Positions 31,675-40,072 of a stretch of 64,000 nucleotides of DNA are shown here, one piece after another. Below the pieces are notes generated by a model. The model saw only the letters and a list, made by a program, of their open reading frames with translations, was not told the origin of the DNA and ran no database searches. The stretch comes from a bacterium (GTDB taxonomy: Bacteria > Actinomycetota > Acidimicrobiia > Acidimicrobiales > CATQHL01): positions 1-64,000 of the forward strand of contig JAPOVS010000026.1 in assembly GCA_026708055.1 (NCBI GenBank). Direction: 5' to 3'. How positions within the stretch are numbered: position 1 is the first letter of the stretch; each line of letters starts with the position of its first letter. The translations under genes and the position numbers were made by a program.

Positions 31675-32148
31675 ATGCCGGTCGCCCCGAGACGGTCGAT
31701 GAACCCGAAGCGGGCCATCGTGGTGGGCCTCGTGGGCGTCACCGCGGGGATCGCCCTGGTCTGGGGGATGAGCCGCCTGGCCAGCACCGGTGATGTGACG
31801 GTGCGGCTCGGCGACGACACTTTCGAAGCGGGCGACCCAACCGAGATGAGCCGCCTCATCGCCCACGACGGGCCGATCCTCTACGCCGACGCCGCCAGCG
31901 GCAACCGCGACATCTGGCTGCAGCACCTCGGCGGCGACCCGGCGGCCGGCTGGTACGCCTTCGACGCCCACCGCGCCGGCGCCGGACGCGACTGCACCCT
32001 CCAATGGCAACAAGCCGCCGCGGTCTTCACCGACCCCTGCGACGGCACGGTCGTCGAGGCGCACGGCGAGGGGCTGCCCGCCTACGACGTGCGCATCGAA
32101 GAGGGCGAGCTGATCGTCGACCTCAACGCCATCAGCGAGGGCGGCTAG
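31675..32148 (+). CDS. Small membrane protein, Rieske-fold-like without ligands
   Basis: 157 residues. There is one N-terminal membrane helix (about 14-31) and a small extracytoplasmic domain whose end reads VFTDPCDGTVVEAHGEGLPA and YDVRIEEGELIVDLN. The layout (Cys, Trp, FxDPCxGT, GLPxYxV, GxLxVDL) resembles the Rieske domain, but the Cys-x-His and Cys-x2-His iron ligands are absent (CTL and CDGT), so a cluster is unlikely. A decayed copy of the first part of this gene lies at 36237-36330, beyond the inserted helicase module. ATG 31675 is used; ATG 31699 is also possible. Confidence 0.65.
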   Translation: MPVAPRRSMNPKRAIVVGLVGVTAGIALVWGMSRLASTGDVTVRLGDDTFEAGDPTEMSRLIAHDGPILYADAASGNRDIWLQHLGGDPAAGWYAFDAHRAGAGRDCTLQWQQAAAVFTDPCDGTVVEAHGEGLPAYDVRIEEGELIVDLNAISEGG

Positions 32149-32229
32149 GAGGTTCCGGCGGGAGACGCCCCGACAACAGCCGCGCTCTCCCAGCCGAGTG
32201 CTCCGAGCTTGCTCTGAAAACGACACTAC

Positions 32230-32259
32230 TTTACATTTATTGGACTAACTTGATAATAT
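32230..32259 (+). promoter_or_regulatory. AT-rich sigma70-type promoter of the nuclease-helicase pair
   Basis: TTTACA (32230-32235) and GATAAT (32252-32257) are 16 bp apart in a stretch of about 60 bp that is far richer in A+T than its surroundings. The transcript would start near 32264, about 60 bp before the nuclease start codon. Confidence 0.6.
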
Positions 32260-32324
32260 GGCAAAATGTGGGAGAAACTCGGGCGGACTTGAAGGCTCAA
32301 CAACTCATCGGACGCTGAGGGGCC

Positions 32325-33092
32325 ATGCCAACTACGGTCTTCACGGGATCACAGGCCACCTGCCGATGGACGGGCAGGACGTGGACCGAGGACGAGGTCG
32401 TGGCTATGTCGGCTGGCATCACCGAGCGAGCGCTTGATGCAGGATTCGAGAGTGGCATTGCCGAGAGACTCCGGGATCTGGCTTCGACAGGCGCATCGGC
32501 CGAGTGGCTCACGCGCTTCCTCGAAGAAGCGGCCTCGCGCGAAATCCGCCCCTGGCAGGTCGGCGAGGCGATCGCCGAGGCAGTCCTCGAGAGCTCTCAC
32601 GGCGTTGTCCTACCGTGGAACCCCAGGCGCGATGAACGCAATCCGCGGGCAAGCCTCCAAGGTGCCGATCTCGTCGGGATCAGCAACGAGGCCCGTGGGC
32701 ACCGGCTTGTCTTCGGCGAGGTGAAGTCCTCCTCCGACGCGAATGCGCCGCCCAGCGTCCTTGCCGGGCGGACCGGGATGGTCCAGCAGCTCGAGCAGCT
32801 GATCGACGACGAGATGCTCCGGTTCACGCTGATCAAGTGGCTCTCGGCCCGAGTCGACGAGGGAGTGTCAGGGGATATGTTCGACAAAGCCCTCGCCGCG
32901 TTCGTCTCGACCTGCGGGGCTGCCGTGCGCTTCGTCGGGATGCTGGTACGCGATACCCCGGCCGACGAGAGGGATGTCAGCGGCCGGGGACGACAGCTCG
33001 GTGCGAGAGTCTCCGAACCTGGATCGGTCGAACTACACGTCTTGTACATGCCCAGGCCGATGGCTCGATGGATCGACTGGGTGGCCGCATGA
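32325..33092 (+). CDS. HamA-like PD-(D/E)xK nuclease candidate of a defence pair
   Basis: 255 residues from ATG 32325. A helical N-terminal half leads to a nuclease-like core: a helix with E81 and E85 (GEAIAEAVLE), then LQGADLVGI (D115) and HRLVFGEVKSS (E132, K134). This E...D...ExK arrangement is the PD-(D/E)xK pattern seen in HamA/AbpA (DUF1837) of Hachiman and AbpAB antiphage systems. The match is at motif level only, so a divergent nuclease of another family is possible. Its stop overlaps the start of the helicase gene (ATGA at 33089-33092), indicating translational coupling. Its own AT-rich promoter lies upstream. Confidence 0.65.
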   Translation: MPTTVFTGSQATCRWTGRTWTEDEVVAMSAGITERALDAGFESGIAERLRDLASTGASAEWLTRFLEEAASREIRPWQVGEAIAEAVLESSHGVVLPWNPRRDERNPRASLQGADLVGISNEARGHRLVFGEVKSSSDANAPPSVLAGRTGMVQQLEQLIDDEMLRFTLIKWLSARVDEGVSGDMFDKALAAFVSTCGAAVRFVGMLVRDTPADERDVSGRGRQLGARVSEPGSVELHVLYMPRPMARWIDWVAA

Positions 33093-36000
33093 CCGACCTC
33101 CTTCTGAGCGCCATCGACGCGGAGTCCGTCCGGTCCGCATCGCGGGACGCGGACAGCTTGGCTGCGTTGGCCATTCTCGGCGAAGAGGGTGCGCTCCGCG
33201 ATCCTGACGCCGTCACGTTCTCCGCGCACACAGTCGAGGTGGCCGCACTCCGCCTTGCGCTCGCCGGGGATGACGGAGCGACGAGGGCGTGCCGAGAGGC
33301 GTTCGAGTTACTGCGCGCGGTCCTTGAGGACGATGGATCGCGATCAAGACTCTCGGCACTGGAGGTCCAGCGGATCCGCACGAGGGCCGCGGCGTTCGGC
33401 GCACTAGGCGGACATCGCTCGCAGACAAGGCAGTTGCTCAACGGACTCCCAGGAGAGACCCTCGAGTCCACCAGATGGGACACCACAGCGGAACTGGCCG
33501 TGCTCGACGTGTGGCAGTTGCTCATCCGGAAGGACGGTTGGGGAGATCTTGACCGGCTGCACCGGATCATCGGGCAAGTCCGAGACCGGCAGGCGGCAAA
33601 CGAGCCTCGGTATCTCGAGCGTGAAGCCGAGCCCCGTGACGCGTGGAAGCTCGTTGCCGGGTACCACCTGCTGAGGGCAGCCGAGATCGTGGCCGAGTAC
33701 ACCGAGCAGGGTTCGACCGATGGTCTATTCGACCCCGTCGAGCAAGCCGAACTTCACTTCGACCGGGCGCGTGACGCTGCACAAGAGGCCGGCGACGCCG
33801 AGATGTCGTTCCTCGTCAGCTTGCTGGACCTCGCCGCTCGATCACTGGTCGAGAGAAGCATCTGGAGAATCGCGCGCGGTGCCGGAACCAGAACGACCGA
33901 CTTCGTCCGACAACTCGCGAGCCGCGAGAACGAGGAGCCGTTCCTCGAACTGCTGCCGCCGCAGAAGAAGGCGCTCGTGGATGAAGGGCTGATCGGGACC
34001 GGCAGACGATCGGTCGTCATCTCCCTGCCCACATCTGCCGGCAAGACGCTCGTCGCGGAGTTCCGGATCCTGCAGGCTCTCGACAGCTACGAGCCTCAAC
34101 GGGGCTGGGTGGCCTATACCGCCCCGACCCGCGCGTTGGTCAACCAGCTGACGGCACGTCTGCGAAGGGACTTCGCTCCGCTCGGCATACGGGTCGAGCG
34201 CTTCTCAGCGGCCCTCGAGGTCGACTCCGTAGAGGCCGAGATTCTGGCGGCCGCGGACAAACCGTTCCGCGTCGTCGTTACCACTCCCGAAAAGCTGGAT
34301 CTCCTGCTTCGAGGCGGCTGGGTGTCGGACCTGGGGAGACCTCTCAGCCTGGTCGTCGTCGACGAGGCCCACAACCTCGGCGCGAAGGGTCGAGGGCTCA
34401 AACTTGAACTGCTCCTCGCGACGATAAACCGTGAGGCGAGAGACGCCGGCTTTCTGCTGATGACACCGTTCATTCCGAACGCCTCTGAGATTGCCTCATG
34501 GCTTGATCCTTCGAATAACCAAGCAGTCGAGCTCGGCCTTGAGTGGCTACCCAACGACCGAGTGGTTGGGCTGGCGAAACTGGAGAGGACGGCCCAGCGA
34601 GGGAGTTCCCGCGTAGTCGCAGAGACCACCCTCGCTTCCGCCCCGTCGCTGCAGACCGAGCAGGCGGTCGCGTTGGCCGAAGGCCGGCCGCTAGGGCTCC
34701 CCTACTCGAGCCTCAAGGCCCCGACCGCGCTGGCGACCGCAGCAGCGCAAGCGCTGAGCCAACGCGGGCTGTCCGTCACGCTCGTCGGCCAACCCGGATA
34801 TTCGTGGTCTGCGGCCGAGCGCCTCGCCGCCACTGGGGGCTCCGAGGTGCGAGACGACCTCGTCGAGTCGATCGGCGATCTGATCGAGGACGAATACGGG
34901 CAGGACTACCCGCTCGCACGACTTCTCAGACGAGGGATAGCGGTCCACCACGCTGGGCTCTCCGACGACGTCCGCCTGATGATCGAGGCGCTCGCCGAGC
35001 GCGGCAAGCTCCGCCACGTCGTCGCCACCACAACGTTGGCCCAAGGCATCAATTTCCCGATAAGCAACGTCGTGCTCGGCAGCTACCAGTACCCGTACGG
35101 CGCAACGATGCCGACCGAGGACTTCTGGAACATCGCGGGCCGGGCGGGTCGCGCCAACCATGGCAGGCCAGGCGTGGTTCTCTTGGCAGCGCACAACGCC
35201 GAGCGGGAAGCCGCGCTTCGGGAGTACCTCAACTCCGCCGCAGTGGAGTTGAGCTCAACCCTGATTGCCATGGTCGAGGAAGCTCTGACCAAGGCCGGTG
35301 ACCTCGATCTGGCAAAGCTCAGCTTCATGGGCAGCTGGTCGAGCTTCGTCCAGTTCGTCACGCATACGTACCGGGTCGTGGGCGCCGAGGAGTTCGCGGT
35401 CCGTGTTGAGCAAGTCCTGCGCGGCACCCTCGGGTTCAGGGAGCTGCGTTCGCGTCGGCCAGAGTTGGCCGACACGCTCGTCCAGAGCGTTCAGGCCTAC
35501 ACGTCCCGACTCTCCGGGAAACCGATCTCGCTTGTTGACTCAACCGGTTTCTCGTGGGAGAGCGTGAACGCGACACTGGCCAGGATGACCGATCGCGGTC
35601 TCAACGATCGACTCCTCGGCGATGAGCTGTTCGCTGAGCGTTCGAGGGTTCTAAGCGACGCCATCGGAGTGCTCCTGCAAGTGCCCGAACTCCGCGAGCA
35701 GCTAGTCGAGCGGTTGGATCCTGCTGAATCCGAAGGCGACTTCCTGTCCCGGGTGGTCAAGGACTGGGTCGGAGGTATGTCGTTGGGCGACCTCGCAGAC
35801 AACTACTTCGCGACAGCCTCCAACGGGGGGCCGCGCGACCTTACGAAGGCGCTCACGCACTGTTGTCAACGGCTGTTCGGCTCGATCTTGCCAACCGTCT
35901 CGTGGGGCCTGTCTGCGCTGCAAGCACTCGCGATGGCCGGACGAGCCGATGAGGAGACAGCAACGCCTCCACGGGATATGCCCTCATACGTCTACTACGG

Positions 36001-36211
36001 AGTCGACACGCGCGAGGCGGTCGCATTTCGCCTGTTCGGTGTTCCCAGAGCAGCTTCGCTCGCACTGGCTCGGACGGTGGGCGAGGGCCGAGGGATAGAA
36101 GAACTCAGACGCTTTCTTGCAAACAGCTCGCCAAGTGACTGGACCGGCGCCCTCGGGAAGATCGGAGCGTCCTACTACAAAGCCTGGCGGTTGGTTGAGC
36201 CTGTCGTGTGA
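33089..36211 (+). CDS. Ski2-like DEAD/DEAH helicase of a defence pair (HamB-like)
   Basis: 1040 residues from ATG 33089. An N-terminal helical domain of about 285 residues has no recognised family. The helicase core follows: Walker A LPTSAGKT (313-320), TAPTRALVNQL (344-354), TTPEKLD (398-404), DEAH (425-428), AVHHAGL (618-624), ATTTLAQGINFP (646-657) and GRAGR (684-688), the order of Ski2-like superfamily 2 enzymes. Where these usually read SATLPN (motif III), this protein has LLMTPFIPN (456-464). The C-terminal 340 residues are unassigned. Together with the nuclease gene upstream it resembles Hachiman HamAB: in those systems the helicase senses damaged or foreign DNA and licenses the nuclease. 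That function here is inference. Confidence 0.75.
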   Translation: MTDLLLSAIDAESVRSASRDADSLAALAILGEEGALRDPDAVTFSAHTVEVAALRLALAGDDGATRACREAFELLRAVLEDDGSRSRLSALEVQRIRTRAAAFGALGGHRSQTRQLLNGLPGETLESTRWDTTAELAVLDVWQLLIRKDGWGDLDRLHRIIGQVRDRQAANEPRYLEREAEPRDAWKLVAGYHLLRAAEIVAEYTEQGSTDGLFDPVEQAELHFDRARDAAQEAGDAEMSFLVSLLDLAARSLVERSIWRIARGAGTRTTDFVRQLASRENEEPFLELLPPQKKALVDEGLIGTGRRSVVISLPTSAGKTLVAEFRILQALDSYEPQRGWVAYTAPTRALVNQLTARLRRDFAPLGIRVERFSAALEVDSVEAEILAAADKPFRVVVTTPEKLDLLLRGGWVSDLGRPLSLVVVDEAHNLGAKGRGLKLELLLATINREARDAGFLLMTPFIPNASEIASWLDPSNNQAVELGLEWLPNDRVVGLAKLERTAQRGSSRVVAETTLASAPSLQTEQAVALAEGRPLGLPYSSLKAPTALATAAAQALSQRGLSVTLVGQPGYSWSAAERLAATGGSEVRDDLVESIGDLIEDEYGQDYPLARLLRRGIAVHHAGLSDDVRLMIEALAERGKLRHVVATTTLAQGINFPISNVVLGSYQYPYGATMPTEDFWNIAGRAGRANHGRPGVVLLAAHNAEREAALREYLNSAAVELSSTLIAMVEEALTKAGDLDLAKLSFMGSWSSFVQFVTHTYRVVGAEEFAVRVEQVLRGTLGFRELRSRRPELADTLVQSVQAYTSRLSGKPISLVDSTGFSWESVNATLARMTDRGLNDRLLGDELFAERSRVLSDAIGVLLQVPELREQLVERLDPAESEGDFLSRVVKDWVGGMSLGDLADNYFATASNGGPRDLTKALTHCCQRLFGSILPTVSWGLSALQALAMAGRADEETATPPRDMPSYVYYGVDTREAVAFRLFGVPRAASLALARTVGEGRGIEELRRFLANSSPSDWTGALGKIGASYYKAWRLVEPVV

Positions 36212-36236
36212 GCGAGGTGGCGCGTCGATCGGTGCG

Positions 36237-36330
36237 GGGGTCACCCTGGTGTGAGGGATGAGCCGCCTGGCCAGCACCGGCGATGTGACGGTGCGCCTCG
36301 GCGAAGACACCGTTCGAGGAGGGTGACCCG
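36237..36330 (+). pseudogene. Decayed copy of the 31675 gene
   Basis: Bases 36241-36310 match 31751-31820 at 64 of 70 positions (for example GGGATGAGCCGCCTGGCCAG is identical). The copy has an in-frame TGA (GTG TGA GGG ATG) and an extra base that shifts the frame soon after, then ends. The nuclease-helicase pair lies exactly between the intact gene and this fragment. Bases 36331-36399 show no other feature. Confidence 0.85.
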
Positions 36331-36399
36331 AACGAAACCGCGGACCTGATGAGTGCGAGAGTCGGATCGCGCTGATTCAAGATGTGATTTTGAATTAGC

Positions 36400-37638
36400 G
36401 TGAATTCTGACGATGCCAAGGTTAGGATCGGCGCGATGATCGTTGAGCGGGACCTTGCTCCGAGGGTGCTGCAATCGGCGCGGGACATGCCGGTCGTGAC
36501 CATCACCGGTCCGCGCCAGAGCGGCAAGACGACCCTTTGCAGGGCGACGTTCCCCGAGCACCCCTACGTCAGCCTCGAGACGCCCGATGTTCGCTCGTTC
36601 GCTCGGGAGGACCCCCGCACGTTCCTGGCGCGGTTCCCGAGCGGGGCCATCCTCGACGAGATCCAGCGCGTTCCCGACCTGCTCTCGTACCTGCAGGTCG
36701 CCGTCGATGAGAATCCCGAGCCCGGCCAGTGGATCCTCACCGGGTCGCACAACCTGTCGTTGCTCGAATCGGTCGGCCAGTCGCTGGCAGGACGGACCGC
36801 TGTGCTGCATCTGTTGCCGCTGGGCCGCGGCGAGGTGCTCCGATTCGACAACCCGCCGCGGCATCTCGACGAGACGCTACTGACCGGCGGCTACCCGCGA
36901 GTGCTCGACCGCGGTCTGGACCCGTCCGACTGGCACGGGTGGTACACGGCCACATACCTCGAGCGGGACGTGAGGACCATCGGCAATGTGGGCGACCTCG
37001 GCATGTTCCACAGGTTCATGCAGCTGTGCGCCGGGCGGACGGCCCAGCTGCTGAACTACTCCGCGCTGGCCGGCGACTGCGGCATCTCCCAACCCACGGC
37101 CAAGGCCTGGCTCAGCGTCCTCGAGACGGGATTCCTCACATTCCGGCTCCCGGCATTCCATTCGAACCTGCGCAAGCGGCTGGTGAAGATGCCCAAGCTC
37201 CACTTCTACGACACCGGCCTCGTCTGCCACCTGCTCGGCGTGACCGGCACCGACCAACTGGCGTCGCACCCGCTGCGCGGCCACATCTTCGAAACGTGGG
37301 TCGCCTCGGAGATCGTCAAGCGGCGCACGAACCGCCGCGCCGCCGGCGCGCTGTCGTTCTACCGGGATCGAGGCGGCGCCGAGGTGGACATCGTGATCGG
37401 CGGTCCCCACCGCCTGTCGCTCGTCGAGACGAAGGCAGCCGCAACCCCGTCAAGCGCACTTCTCCGGCCCGCCCGCAGGGTGCGCGACCAACTCGAAGGC
37501 GGCGACTGCACGGTGTACTGCGTCTACGGCGGCGACGATCTTCAGCAGCGTCACGGTGACACCCTCCTGCCGTGGGCCCGCCTTCACGAGACCGACCTCG
37601 AACCGACTCGAGAAGGGAGAGATCCGGCGGACGGGTGA
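36400..37638 (+). CDS. AAA ATPase with DUF4143 C-terminal domain
   Basis: 412 residues from GTG 36400; ATG 36436 (MIVERDLAPR) is the more usual family start. Walker A GPRQSGKTT is at 37-45, Walker B GAILDEIQRV at about 86-95, sensor ILTGSHNLSLL near 112-122. The C-terminal DUF4143 part includes FYDTGLVCHLLG and a PD-(D/E)xK-like end (FYRDRGGAEVDIVI... LVETKAA). This widespread AAA_14/DUF4143 family is often in accessory regions; its role is unknown. It may be cargo of the same insertion region as the helicase pair. Bases 37639-37795 show nothing recognisable. Confidence 0.88.
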   Translation: MNSDDAKVRIGAMIVERDLAPRVLQSARDMPVVTITGPRQSGKTTLCRATFPEHPYVSLETPDVRSFAREDPRTFLARFPSGAILDEIQRVPDLLSYLQVAVDENPEPGQWILTGSHNLSLLESVGQSLAGRTAVLHLLPLGRGEVLRFDNPPRHLDETLLTGGYPRVLDRGLDPSDWHGWYTATYLERDVRTIGNVGDLGMFHRFMQLCAGRTAQLLNYSALAGDCGISQPTAKAWLSVLETGFLTFRLPAFHSNLRKRLVKMPKLHFYDTGLVCHLLGVTGTDQLASHPLRGHIFETWVASEIVKRRTNRRAAGALSFYRDRGGAEVDIVIGGPHRLSLVETKAAATPSSALLRPARRVRDQLEGGDCTVYCVYGGDDLQQRHGDTLLPWARLHETDLEPTREGRDPADG

Positions 37639-37795
37639 CGCCTGCGGCCGATCGCAACCCGGACCCGCACCTCCCTCCGGCTCGAAGCAGAGCTGCAGCC
37701 CGGCGATGACCGCCGTCAGGCGGGTGCCCTCCGCGGACCCGCCCCCCCGCCGGCAGCGGAGTCGCAGCCCGATCCGGGGAATACTCCGCGCCCTC

Positions 37796-40072
37796 TCAGG
37801 GCGCGGCCCGCTCCAGCGGCGCCCACGCGACCAGCAGACGCTTCTCCCCCACATCAGGGAAACGAACGGTCACTTCGGCGTCGTCGCCCGTGCCGGAGGC
37901 GTCGACGACCACGCCGGTTCCCCAGGCAGGATGCTTGACGTCGGCGCCCACCGGAAGCTCCGAGGCTCCTACACCGCGCGCCGGGTCCGGCGATTGCCCG
38001 GACCTGCCGCCCAGTGCCTGTTCGACCTGCGCCTCCCGCCTCGCTGCGCGGCGCTCGCCGAATCGGGCCGTGCTGTCGAACCGGTCCGAACCGCCGGACC
38101 GACCAGCGTGATCCTGGCGCGGGAGGCGCTCGCGGCGACCCGACACCTCGGTCAGCAACTCGGCAGGTATCTCCTTGAGGAACCGGCTCGGCCGTTGGTA
38201 CTGCCCGATCCCCCAGATGGTGCGGCGCTCGGCGTCGCTGAGGTAGAGGCGCTCGCGGGCCCGGGTGATGCCGACGTAGGCCAGGCGGCGCTCCTCGGCC
38301 AACTCCTCGGGATCGTCCAGAGCCTGCGTCGGTGGGAACACCTCCTCCTCTAGGCCGGTGAGGAACACCACCGGGAACTCCAGACCCTTGGCAGTGTGTA
38401 CTGTCAGCAACACCACCTTGGACTCATCGCTGTCCAGATCGTCGGTCGGTGACACCAGGGCGGTCTGTTCCAGGAACTCGCCCACCTGCTCATGCTCGGA
38501 CGCGCCCTCGATCAGCGTCGACAGGTTCTCGAGGCGCCCCTCGGCCTCCACGCTGCCATCCTCAGACTCCTCGTAGAGTTCCTCCAGGTAGCCGCTGCGG
38601 GTCAGCAGGAACTCGAGCACCGCCTTCGGGCCCGCGACGAGCCGGCCGGCGGCCTCATCCAGCAGGGTCGTGAAGCTCTCGATGCCCGCCAACGCGGTGC
38701 CGGACACACCCGCCTCGGCCGGCTGGCGCAGCGCCTCGTTGAATGGCAGCCCGGTGCTCGCTGCCCAGGCGTCGAGGCGTTCGACGGAGCGGTCGCCGAT
38801 GCCTCGGCGGGGCACGTTCAGCACCCGCTTGAGGCTCACCTCGTCGGCGGGGTTCACCACGGCGCGCAGGTAGGCCAAGGCGTCGCGCACCTCCCGCCGG
38901 TCGTAGAAGGCTGTGGCGCCGATGACCGCATAGGGCAGGTCCTCGGCGTTGAGCGCGGTCTCCAGCGCCCGGCTCTGGGCGTTGATCCGGTACATCACGG
39001 CGAAGTCGCTGAGCGCGTGGCCGTCGACCGCCAACCGCTGGATCTCCGCCACCACCCAGCGGGCCTCGTCGTCCTCGTCGGCGGCCCGGTACCAGATGAT
39101 CCGCTCGCCCCGCTCGGCGTCGGTCCAGAGCCTCTTGGGGTGACGGCCGAGGTTGTTGGCGATCACGGCGTTGGCGGCGTCCAGCACGGTCTGCGTGGAG
39201 CGGTAGTTCTGCTCCAACAGGATCACCGCGGCGTCCTCGAAAGCGCTCTCGAACTCCACGATGTTGCGCACGGTGGCGCCGCGGAAGCGGTAGATGGACT
39301 GGTCGGCGTCGCCCACCACGAAGACGTTGCGGTGGCGGGCGCCGAGCATCAGCACGATCTCGTTCTGCGCCCGGTTGGTGTCCTGATACTCGTCCACGAG
39401 GACGTGCTGGAAGCGCTCCTGGTAGGAGGCCAGCACGTCGGGGTGCTCGCGGAACAGGCGCACCACCAGCGTGAGCAGGTCGTCGAAGTCCATGGCGCCG
39501 GCGCGCTGGAGGCGGCGCTGGTACTCGGCGTACACCTGCGCCGTGCGGCGTCGGATCGGATCCGAGCCCATCCCCGCATCCAGGTACGACTCGGGGCTGA
39601 GCAGGTCGCCTTTGGCGGCGCTGATGCGGCCGTGGACCGCTCCGGGCGTGCTGCGCCGGGTGTCCATGCCCAGGTCGACCATGACGTAGCGCGTCAGCCG
39701 CACCGAGTCGGACTGGTCGTAGATGCTGAAGCCCGCCGGATACCCCATCCGCTCGGCCTCGCGGCGCAGGATCCGGGCACAGGCCGAGTGGAAGGTGCGC
39801 ACCCACATCCGCTCCGCCACCGGTCCGACGAGATCCACGACGCGGGCGCGCATCTCGTCGGCCGCCTTGTTGGTGAACGTGATGGCCAGGATGGCGAACG
39901 GCGAGACGACGCGGTCCGAAATGAGGTGGGCGATCCGGTGCGTGAGCACCCGCGTCTTGCCCGACCCGGCCCCTGCGCTGACCAGGAGCGGGCCCCGCTC
40001 GTGCAGAACCGCGTCGTACTGCGCTGGATTGAGTTGCACGGTGTCGTGCTGCGCAGGGTTGGGTTGCGCCAT
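37796..40072 (-). CDS. pcrA: UvrD/PcrA-type superfamily 1 DNA helicase
   Basis: 758 residues from ATG 40072. Walker A SAGAGSGKT is at 32-40, AITFTNKAADEMR near 63-75, VDEYQDTN near 225, GDADQSIYRFRGA near 252, then LEQNYRST, and LTVHTAKGLEF and YVGITRARERLYL in the second half. The extreme N-terminus repeats itself (QPNPAQHDTV, QLNPAQYDAV). The C-terminus ends in a Tudor-like DVKHPAWGTGVVVDASG module, as in PcrA, where it contacts RNA polymerase or repair partners. It acts in nucleotide excision repair and in clearing protein from DNA. Confidence 0.93.
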   Translation of the reverse strand: MAQPNPAQHDTVQLNPAQYDAVLHERGPLLVSAGAGSGKTRVLTHRIAHLISDRVVSPFAILAITFTNKAADEMRARVVDLVGPVAERMWVRTFHSACARILRREAERMGYPAGFSIYDQSDSVRLTRYVMVDLGMDTRRSTPGAVHGRISAAKGDLLSPESYLDAGMGSDPIRRRTAQVYAEYQRRLQRAGAMDFDDLLTLVVRLFREHPDVLASYQERFQHVLVDEYQDTNRAQNEIVLMLGARHRNVFVVGDADQSIYRFRGATVRNIVEFESAFEDAAVILLEQNYRSTQTVLDAANAVIANNLGRHPKRLWTDAERGERIIWYRAADEDDEARWVVAEIQRLAVDGHALSDFAVMYRINAQSRALETALNAEDLPYAVIGATAFYDRREVRDALAYLRAVVNPADEVSLKRVLNVPRRGIGDRSVERLDAWAASTGLPFNEALRQPAEAGVSGTALAGIESFTTLLDEAAGRLVAGPKAVLEFLLTRSGYLEELYEESEDGSVEAEGRLENLSTLIEGASEHEQVGEFLEQTALVSPTDDLDSDESKVVLLTVHTAKGLEFPVVFLTGLEEEVFPPTQALDDPEELAEERRLAYVGITRARERLYLSDAERRTIWGIGQYQRPSRFLKEIPAELLTEVSGRRERLPRQDHAGRSGGSDRFDSTARFGERRAARREAQVEQALGGRSGQSPDPARGVGASELPVGADVKHPAWGTGVVVDASGTGDDAEVTVRFPDVGEKRLLVAWAPLERAAP

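Follow-up and report, generated by a model that had tools for sequence, protein, structure and literature searches.

The 64,000-nt stretch of actinobacterial DNA analyzed here (the window) harbors, within an accessory insert, a nuclease-helicase gene pair whose products match both protein models of the PADLOC phage defence candidate PDC-M23 (PDC-M23A, 2.5e-74, residues 4-253; PDC-M23B, E = 0, residues 4-1037). With both proteins matching over their full length, the window pair is a member of PDC-M23; gene order and overlap are also the same, and no difference from this candidate was found. The initial annotation had reported genes of 255 and 1,040 residues overlapping by ATGA behind their own AT-rich promoter, and this arrangement is borne out by the reading frames of M23A and M23B, which share 4 nt (Table 1). 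The AT-rich leader (32149-32324, 55% GC) contains two overlapping sigma-70-like sites, compared with 0.4 expected, which are the only such sites of the region and match the promoter consensus only. M23B carries the helicase motifs PTSAGKT, TRAL, DEAH and GRAGR at positions 314, 347, 425 and 684, respectively.

Table 1. Coordinates of the PDC-M23 pair, its predicted functional sites and the surrounding insert in the window.
Feature	Position	Strand	Description
Accessory insert	32149..37795	.	Between a small conserved gene and a convergent uvrD-type helicase gene; empty sites in four genus-mates
Promoter-like site TTTACA-16-GATAAT	32230..32257	+	Within the AT-rich leader preceding the pair; consensus match only
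M23A gene	32325..33092	+	255 aa, predicted HamA-like D-GEXK nuclease; E81, D115, E132 and K134 invariant
D115 codon of M23A	32667..32669	+	Predicted to bind metal; aligns with HamA D119
E132-V133-K134 codons of M23A	32718..32726	+	Predicted catalytic EXK, equivalent to HamA E138/K140 in alignments
M23B gene	33089..36211	+	1,040 aa, starting at the ATG of the ATGA overlap; HamB-like Ski2-family helicase
M23B N-terminal helical region	33335..33928	+	Related to the HamB NAH domain; about residues 83-280, extent approximate
Small-gene remnant, 97 nt	36234..36330	+	91% identity with 31744-31820 across 77 nt; scar of recombination separating the pair from the ATPase gene
AAA_14/DUF4143 ATPase	36400..37638	+	PADLOC candidate PDC-S01; co-cargo of the insert

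The insert (5,647 bp, 65.5% GC compared with 70-71% in its flanks) is bounded upstream by a small conserved gene (31675-32148) and downstream by the uvrD-type gene, which ends at 37796. A compact insert between core genes had been described initially; the insert itself is confirmed, but it was drawn too small, as the real one includes the ATPase as a third gene. In four genus-mates (G001, G002, G004 and G006) the stop of the small gene directly abuts the uvrD end, representing empty sites. At the same site, genus-mate G007 harbors a DUF4143-family ATPase gene in the opposite orientation and without the pair, and genus-mate G005 harbors a small helix-turn-helix gene, a putative HipA-like gene and a small-gene repeat. 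The cargo thus differs in three of the seven genomes examined (M23AB plus ATPase, ATPase alone, or the HipA-like gene; intervals compared: window 32149-37795, L068 742-2557 and L069 778-2515), indicating that the site is an insertion hotspot. In addition, the small-gene remnant differs from the local copy by about 9%, which suggests that at least two recombination events built up the insert. In G005, a second copy of the final 48 nt of the small gene lies at the distal end of the HipA-like gene (L069 2516-2563), resembling an attachment-type repeat.

The downstream ATPase, which matches the PADLOC PDC-S01 model at 2.4e-104, lies on the same strand and in the same insert as the pair and could be viewed as a third component of the system. 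However, such a role is very unlikely, because it is set apart from M23B by 188 nt and the small-gene remnant, PDC-S01 is catalogued as a candidate in its own right (PMC12988326), and G007 has a related ATPase at the same site without the pair. Moreover, the homolog neighborhoods scanned contain restriction, BREX and other defence genes but no fixed ATPase.

Clear M23A homologs were found in Acidimicrobiia and other Actinomycetota, in Rhodothermales (Rhodothermota), and on contigs from viral collections. M23A is directly followed by M23B at every clear homolog locus found, with the 4-nt overlap present in 10 of the 14 loci measured, and the same 4 of 395 genomes of the class carry M23A and strong M23B matches. 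Homologs of the two genes occurring apart from each other would have told against a functional pair, but the two were always together. A fifth M23B match among the 395 genomes (G298) has a HamA-type partner and therefore represents a Hachiman-type pair; a Pfam HamA search of 296 genomes of the phylum, run without a positive control, had returned no match before this pair was found. M23A was absent from all seven other genus members (0/7), and a search of phage and plasmid collections gave no match at 1e-5. A match at locus L013 (5e-4), with no helicase match beside it, was treated as chance. Interrupted copies also occur, with M23B split into three frames in L002 (3616-6758) and M23A into two in L005 (7959-8774), reflecting either decay or assembly errors.

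PDC families were proposed through "guilt-by-embedding", and the majority are experimentally untested (PMC12988326). In the literature searched, a scope without bioRxiv preprints and most subscription journals, no publication naming PDC-M23 or giving a mechanism or test for it was found, nor any published statement tying it to Hachiman. The early suggestion of a new antiphage subtype therefore needs qualification: the pair is already catalogued as PDC-M23, whereas its relation to Hachiman is apparently undescribed in that literature.

Several relatives lie in defence islands, in line with the original view that the layout fits antiphage defence. In L024 (5773-15219), an hsdM-S fusion gene, M23A, M23B and hsdR form a single overlapping operon, and in L026 (4791-15200) the overlapping genes follow the order hsdM, hsdS, M23A, M23B and hsdR, so that hsdS and hsdR flank the pair inside a type I restriction operon in both cases. 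The genes hsdR and hsdS also adjoin the pair in L017, brxL lies upstream of it in L028, and a CBASS-type cyclase, a helicase-DUF2290 pair and an HKD-Snf2 protein are encoded near it in L001. A HamB-like helicase gene is located near the pair in L002.

For the small protein, a search of Pfam and NCBIfam gave no match, and none of nine M23A members matched Pfam HamA/DUF1837 (PF08878), compared with 13 of 13 HamA controls. The PADLOC HamA model PDLC00159 matches the window M23A at 5e-4 and seven of the nine M23A members, and in the reverse search an M23A model matches two of 13 true HamA proteins. Comparison of a profile of 10 M23A proteins with one of 13 plasmid HamA proteins yielded a probability of 96.5 (E = 9.3e-10, score 70.8) over 203 columns, against scores of at most 21.8 for 60 column shuffles and 14.5 for reversal. 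Controls shuffled in 20-column blocks reached scores of up to 48, indicating that a large share of the profile score comes from the active-site block. The N-terminal half of the nuclease, first described as unrecognized, is covered by this comparison, in which M23A aligns with HamA along most of its length; a full-length alignment to a non-nuclease family, the outcome that would have spoken against the initial reading, was not seen.

The same alignment places D115, E132, K134 and an upstream helix glutamate in register, with D115, E132 and K134 of M23A falling on HamA D119, E138 and K140, which were located by matching the 13-protein HamA set to solved HamA (2e-86). M23A accordingly carries the HamA D-GEXK motif (D115/G131-E132-x-K134, compared with D119/E138-x-K140 in HamA). 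The nuclease pattern of D115, E132 and K134 is exactly as first claimed, and these residues, together with E81, G113 and G131, are invariant in M23A alignments of both 9 and 10 sequences. In the PDB sequence-profile search, the best matches of M23A were cAMP phosphodiesterases, which aligned over 50 residues only and were judged to be chance, followed by HamA at 0.12.

In a structure model of M23A built from ten sequences (pLDDT 79), E132 and K134 lie on one strand, D115 sits immediately ahead of the strand before it, and E81 is part of a helix, a predicted active-site layout as in PD-(D/E)XK nucleases. In a viral structure library, the sole significant match of the model was an AbpA/HamA C-terminal-domain protein, aligned over its full length (E = 2.2e-6, TM 0.56). 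A PDB fold search returned nothing significant, with HamA (8vx9) absent among the best 50 matches listed, and the fold evidence thus consists of the one viral-library match and a ten-sequence model. Restriction and nicking endonucleases are among the weak best PDB fold matches. Overall, the data support remote homology of M23A to the HamA nuclease, and the D...GEXK active site is conserved in the close family of M23A. In addition, R102-D-E-R105 is a candidate for the HamA interface motif (R/K)XX(R/K). In two relatives from rhizobial plasmids (L031 3689-4549 and L075 2198-3052), the linked helicase is kept but the motif reads QVK, with glutamine replacing the catalytic glutamate, suggesting that some members of the wider clade may lack nuclease activity.

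The best solved relatives of M23B by sequence are Ski2-family helicases, with PDB matches to HamB (8vx9_B) at 4e-26 and to AbpB (8zue_B) at 6e-4. The three best PDB matches of its structure model are all HamB (E = 1e-24, 2e-24 and 7e-23; TM about 0.63-0.64), ahead of Hel308 (E = 3e-17, TM 0.46), and a profile comparison with HamB gave E = 6.5e-71 at about 22% identity with most of the protein aligned. The N-terminal 285 and C-terminal 340 residues had been considered unrecognized, but both proved to be HamB-related when tested apart by profile, the N-terminus at E = 1.8e-4 (score 37.3, column-shuffled controls at most 18.1) and the C-terminus at E = 1.6e-9 (score 74.4, controls at most 20.1). 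The N-terminal region is helical in the structure model. M23B is a HamB-like Ski2-family helicase with HamB-type N-terminal helical (NAH) and C-terminal regions. Motif II reads DEAHN invariantly in the nine-member M23B alignment, whereas almost every sequence of the HamB set has DEGH, and in phylogenetic trees M23B separates as a fully supported clade of its own, which falls inside or beside HamB depending on the long-branch rows included.

Given that Hel308 is the nearest helicase outside defence systems, and that the HamB profile scores it at 202 bits compared with 225-327 bits for M23B, the pair could instead serve DNA repair or element maintenance, acting in Hel308/HELQ-like stalled-fork processing rather than in immunity. 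However, the patchy distribution of the pair across the class and its genus, the empty sites, its residence in type I restriction operons and beside BREX and CBASS genes, and its fixed linkage to a HamA-like nuclease make a repair role improbable.

Among other helicases of this group, two HamB-like proteins (L074 1756-2631 and L077 1726-2616) have small partners that match neither HamA nor M23A profiles and carry a D plus E-I/M-KK motif, possibly representing yet another HamA-like lineage. A Nostoc plasmid gene annotated as HamA (L032 2309-6538) encodes about 1,400 aa and spans the helicase match, an apparent HamA-HamB fusion.

Homology, a conserved active site, linkage as one translationally overlapped unit, mobility and defence context are established for the pair by computation. 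By analogy with Hachiman, it probably constitutes a two-protein immune complex acting as a DNA-damage-triggered suicide nuclease, a reading to which we assign a probability of roughly 78%. Hachiman is a heterodimer in which DNA-end sensing by the helicase releases or activates the nuclease, leading to the destruction of all DNA and abortive infection, and complex formation and damage sensing by M23A-M23B are modeled on it (PMC12278908). In the proposed mechanism, the N-terminal helices of M23B would hold M23A in an inactive heterodimer until M23B encounters damaged DNA arising from phage replication, such as a free 3' single-stranded end. ATP hydrolysis would then shift the helicase domains of M23B and unleash M23A, which would degrade both phage and host DNA, so that the infected cell would die before phage release.

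Alternatively, the pair may provide a restriction-like defence that is selective for incoming or phage DNA and not abortive, with the copies embedded in restriction-modification operons acting on HsdR-made ends. The position of the pair between hsdS and hsdR in L024 and L026 suggests such a division of labor, HamA has a type IIS restriction enzyme as its nearest structural neighbor (PMC12278908), and the endonucleases among the weak fold matches of M23A point in the same direction. However, the window copy and most of the relatives examined lack restriction-modification genes in the operon, and in the Hachiman relatives infection is abortive and host DNA is lost (PMC12278908), leaving this alternative unlikely.

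Many catalogued defence candidates, PDC-M23 among them, have no assigned mechanism, and linking PDC-M23 to HamAB provides a concrete, testable one with named catalytic residues. The Hachiman-type reading extends this immunity to a clade missed by Pfam HamA, comprising Actinomycetota (Acidimicrobiia), Rhodothermota and contigs of viral collections. Because some copies are embedded in type I restriction operons, whether restriction cooperates with a DNA-end-sensing suicide nuclease can be tested directly. A speculative scenario, to which we give only a small chance, is that PDC-M23 is a separately evolved HamAB-type lineage incorporated between the hsdS and hsdR genes of these operons to serve as a second line of defence, in which DNA ends left by HsdR, or the failure of HsdR against modified phage, would load M23B and trigger M23A, and the stand-alone window copy would represent this module in free-living form. 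The informative parts are the Hachiman connection and the restriction-operon embedding, whereas the locus itself is a further member of a catalogued candidate.

Compared with known systems, PDC-M23 shares with Hel308/HELQ the Ski2-family DNA helicase core, but the latter have no nuclease partner, lack the HamB-type N-terminal helical region (PMC12278908), and resemble the M23B model less closely than HamB does. AbpAB, which the initial annotation had named beside Hachiman, is likewise a nuclease-helicase pair; AbpA combines an extra Cap4-like N-terminal nuclease domain with a degenerate HamA-like C-terminus, and AbpB is Ski2-like (PMC12278908), so that remote similarity to the window pair is expected, and the viral-library match of M23A is named after the AbpA/HamA C-terminal domain. 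However, an AbpA model gave no match to the window M23A at E <= 1, the 255 residues of M23A leave no Cap4-like or other extra N-terminal nuclease domain, its HamA-like active site is intact whereas that of AbpA is degenerate (PMC12278908), and AbpB is a very weak match to M23B compared with HamB. The AbpAB assignment is therefore dropped as extremely unlikely.

The nuclease-helicase core is also shared with Hachiman type II (HamABC), which is defined by an added DUF3223 gene (PMC8565338), but neither of the neighbor genes scanned beside the window pair encodes DUF3223. Type I Hachiman (HamAB) shares with PDC-M23 the A-B gene order, gene sizes, overlapping genes and defence-island context, as well as the D-GEXK nuclease, the Ski2-like helicase and the HamB-type N- and C-terminal regions. 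The differences are that M23A lies below Pfam HamA detection, that M23B carries DEAH(N) in place of the DEGH of HamB, and that M23B forms its own clade. Because M23A does not match Pfam HamA and the clade position of M23B depends on the rows included, PDC-M23 is not filed as Hachiman. Nevertheless, the first description of a divergent Hachiman-like nuclease-helicase pair is upheld by the profile homology of M23A to HamA and by HamB as the best PDB match of the M23B model, and PDC-M23 probably works like Hachiman.
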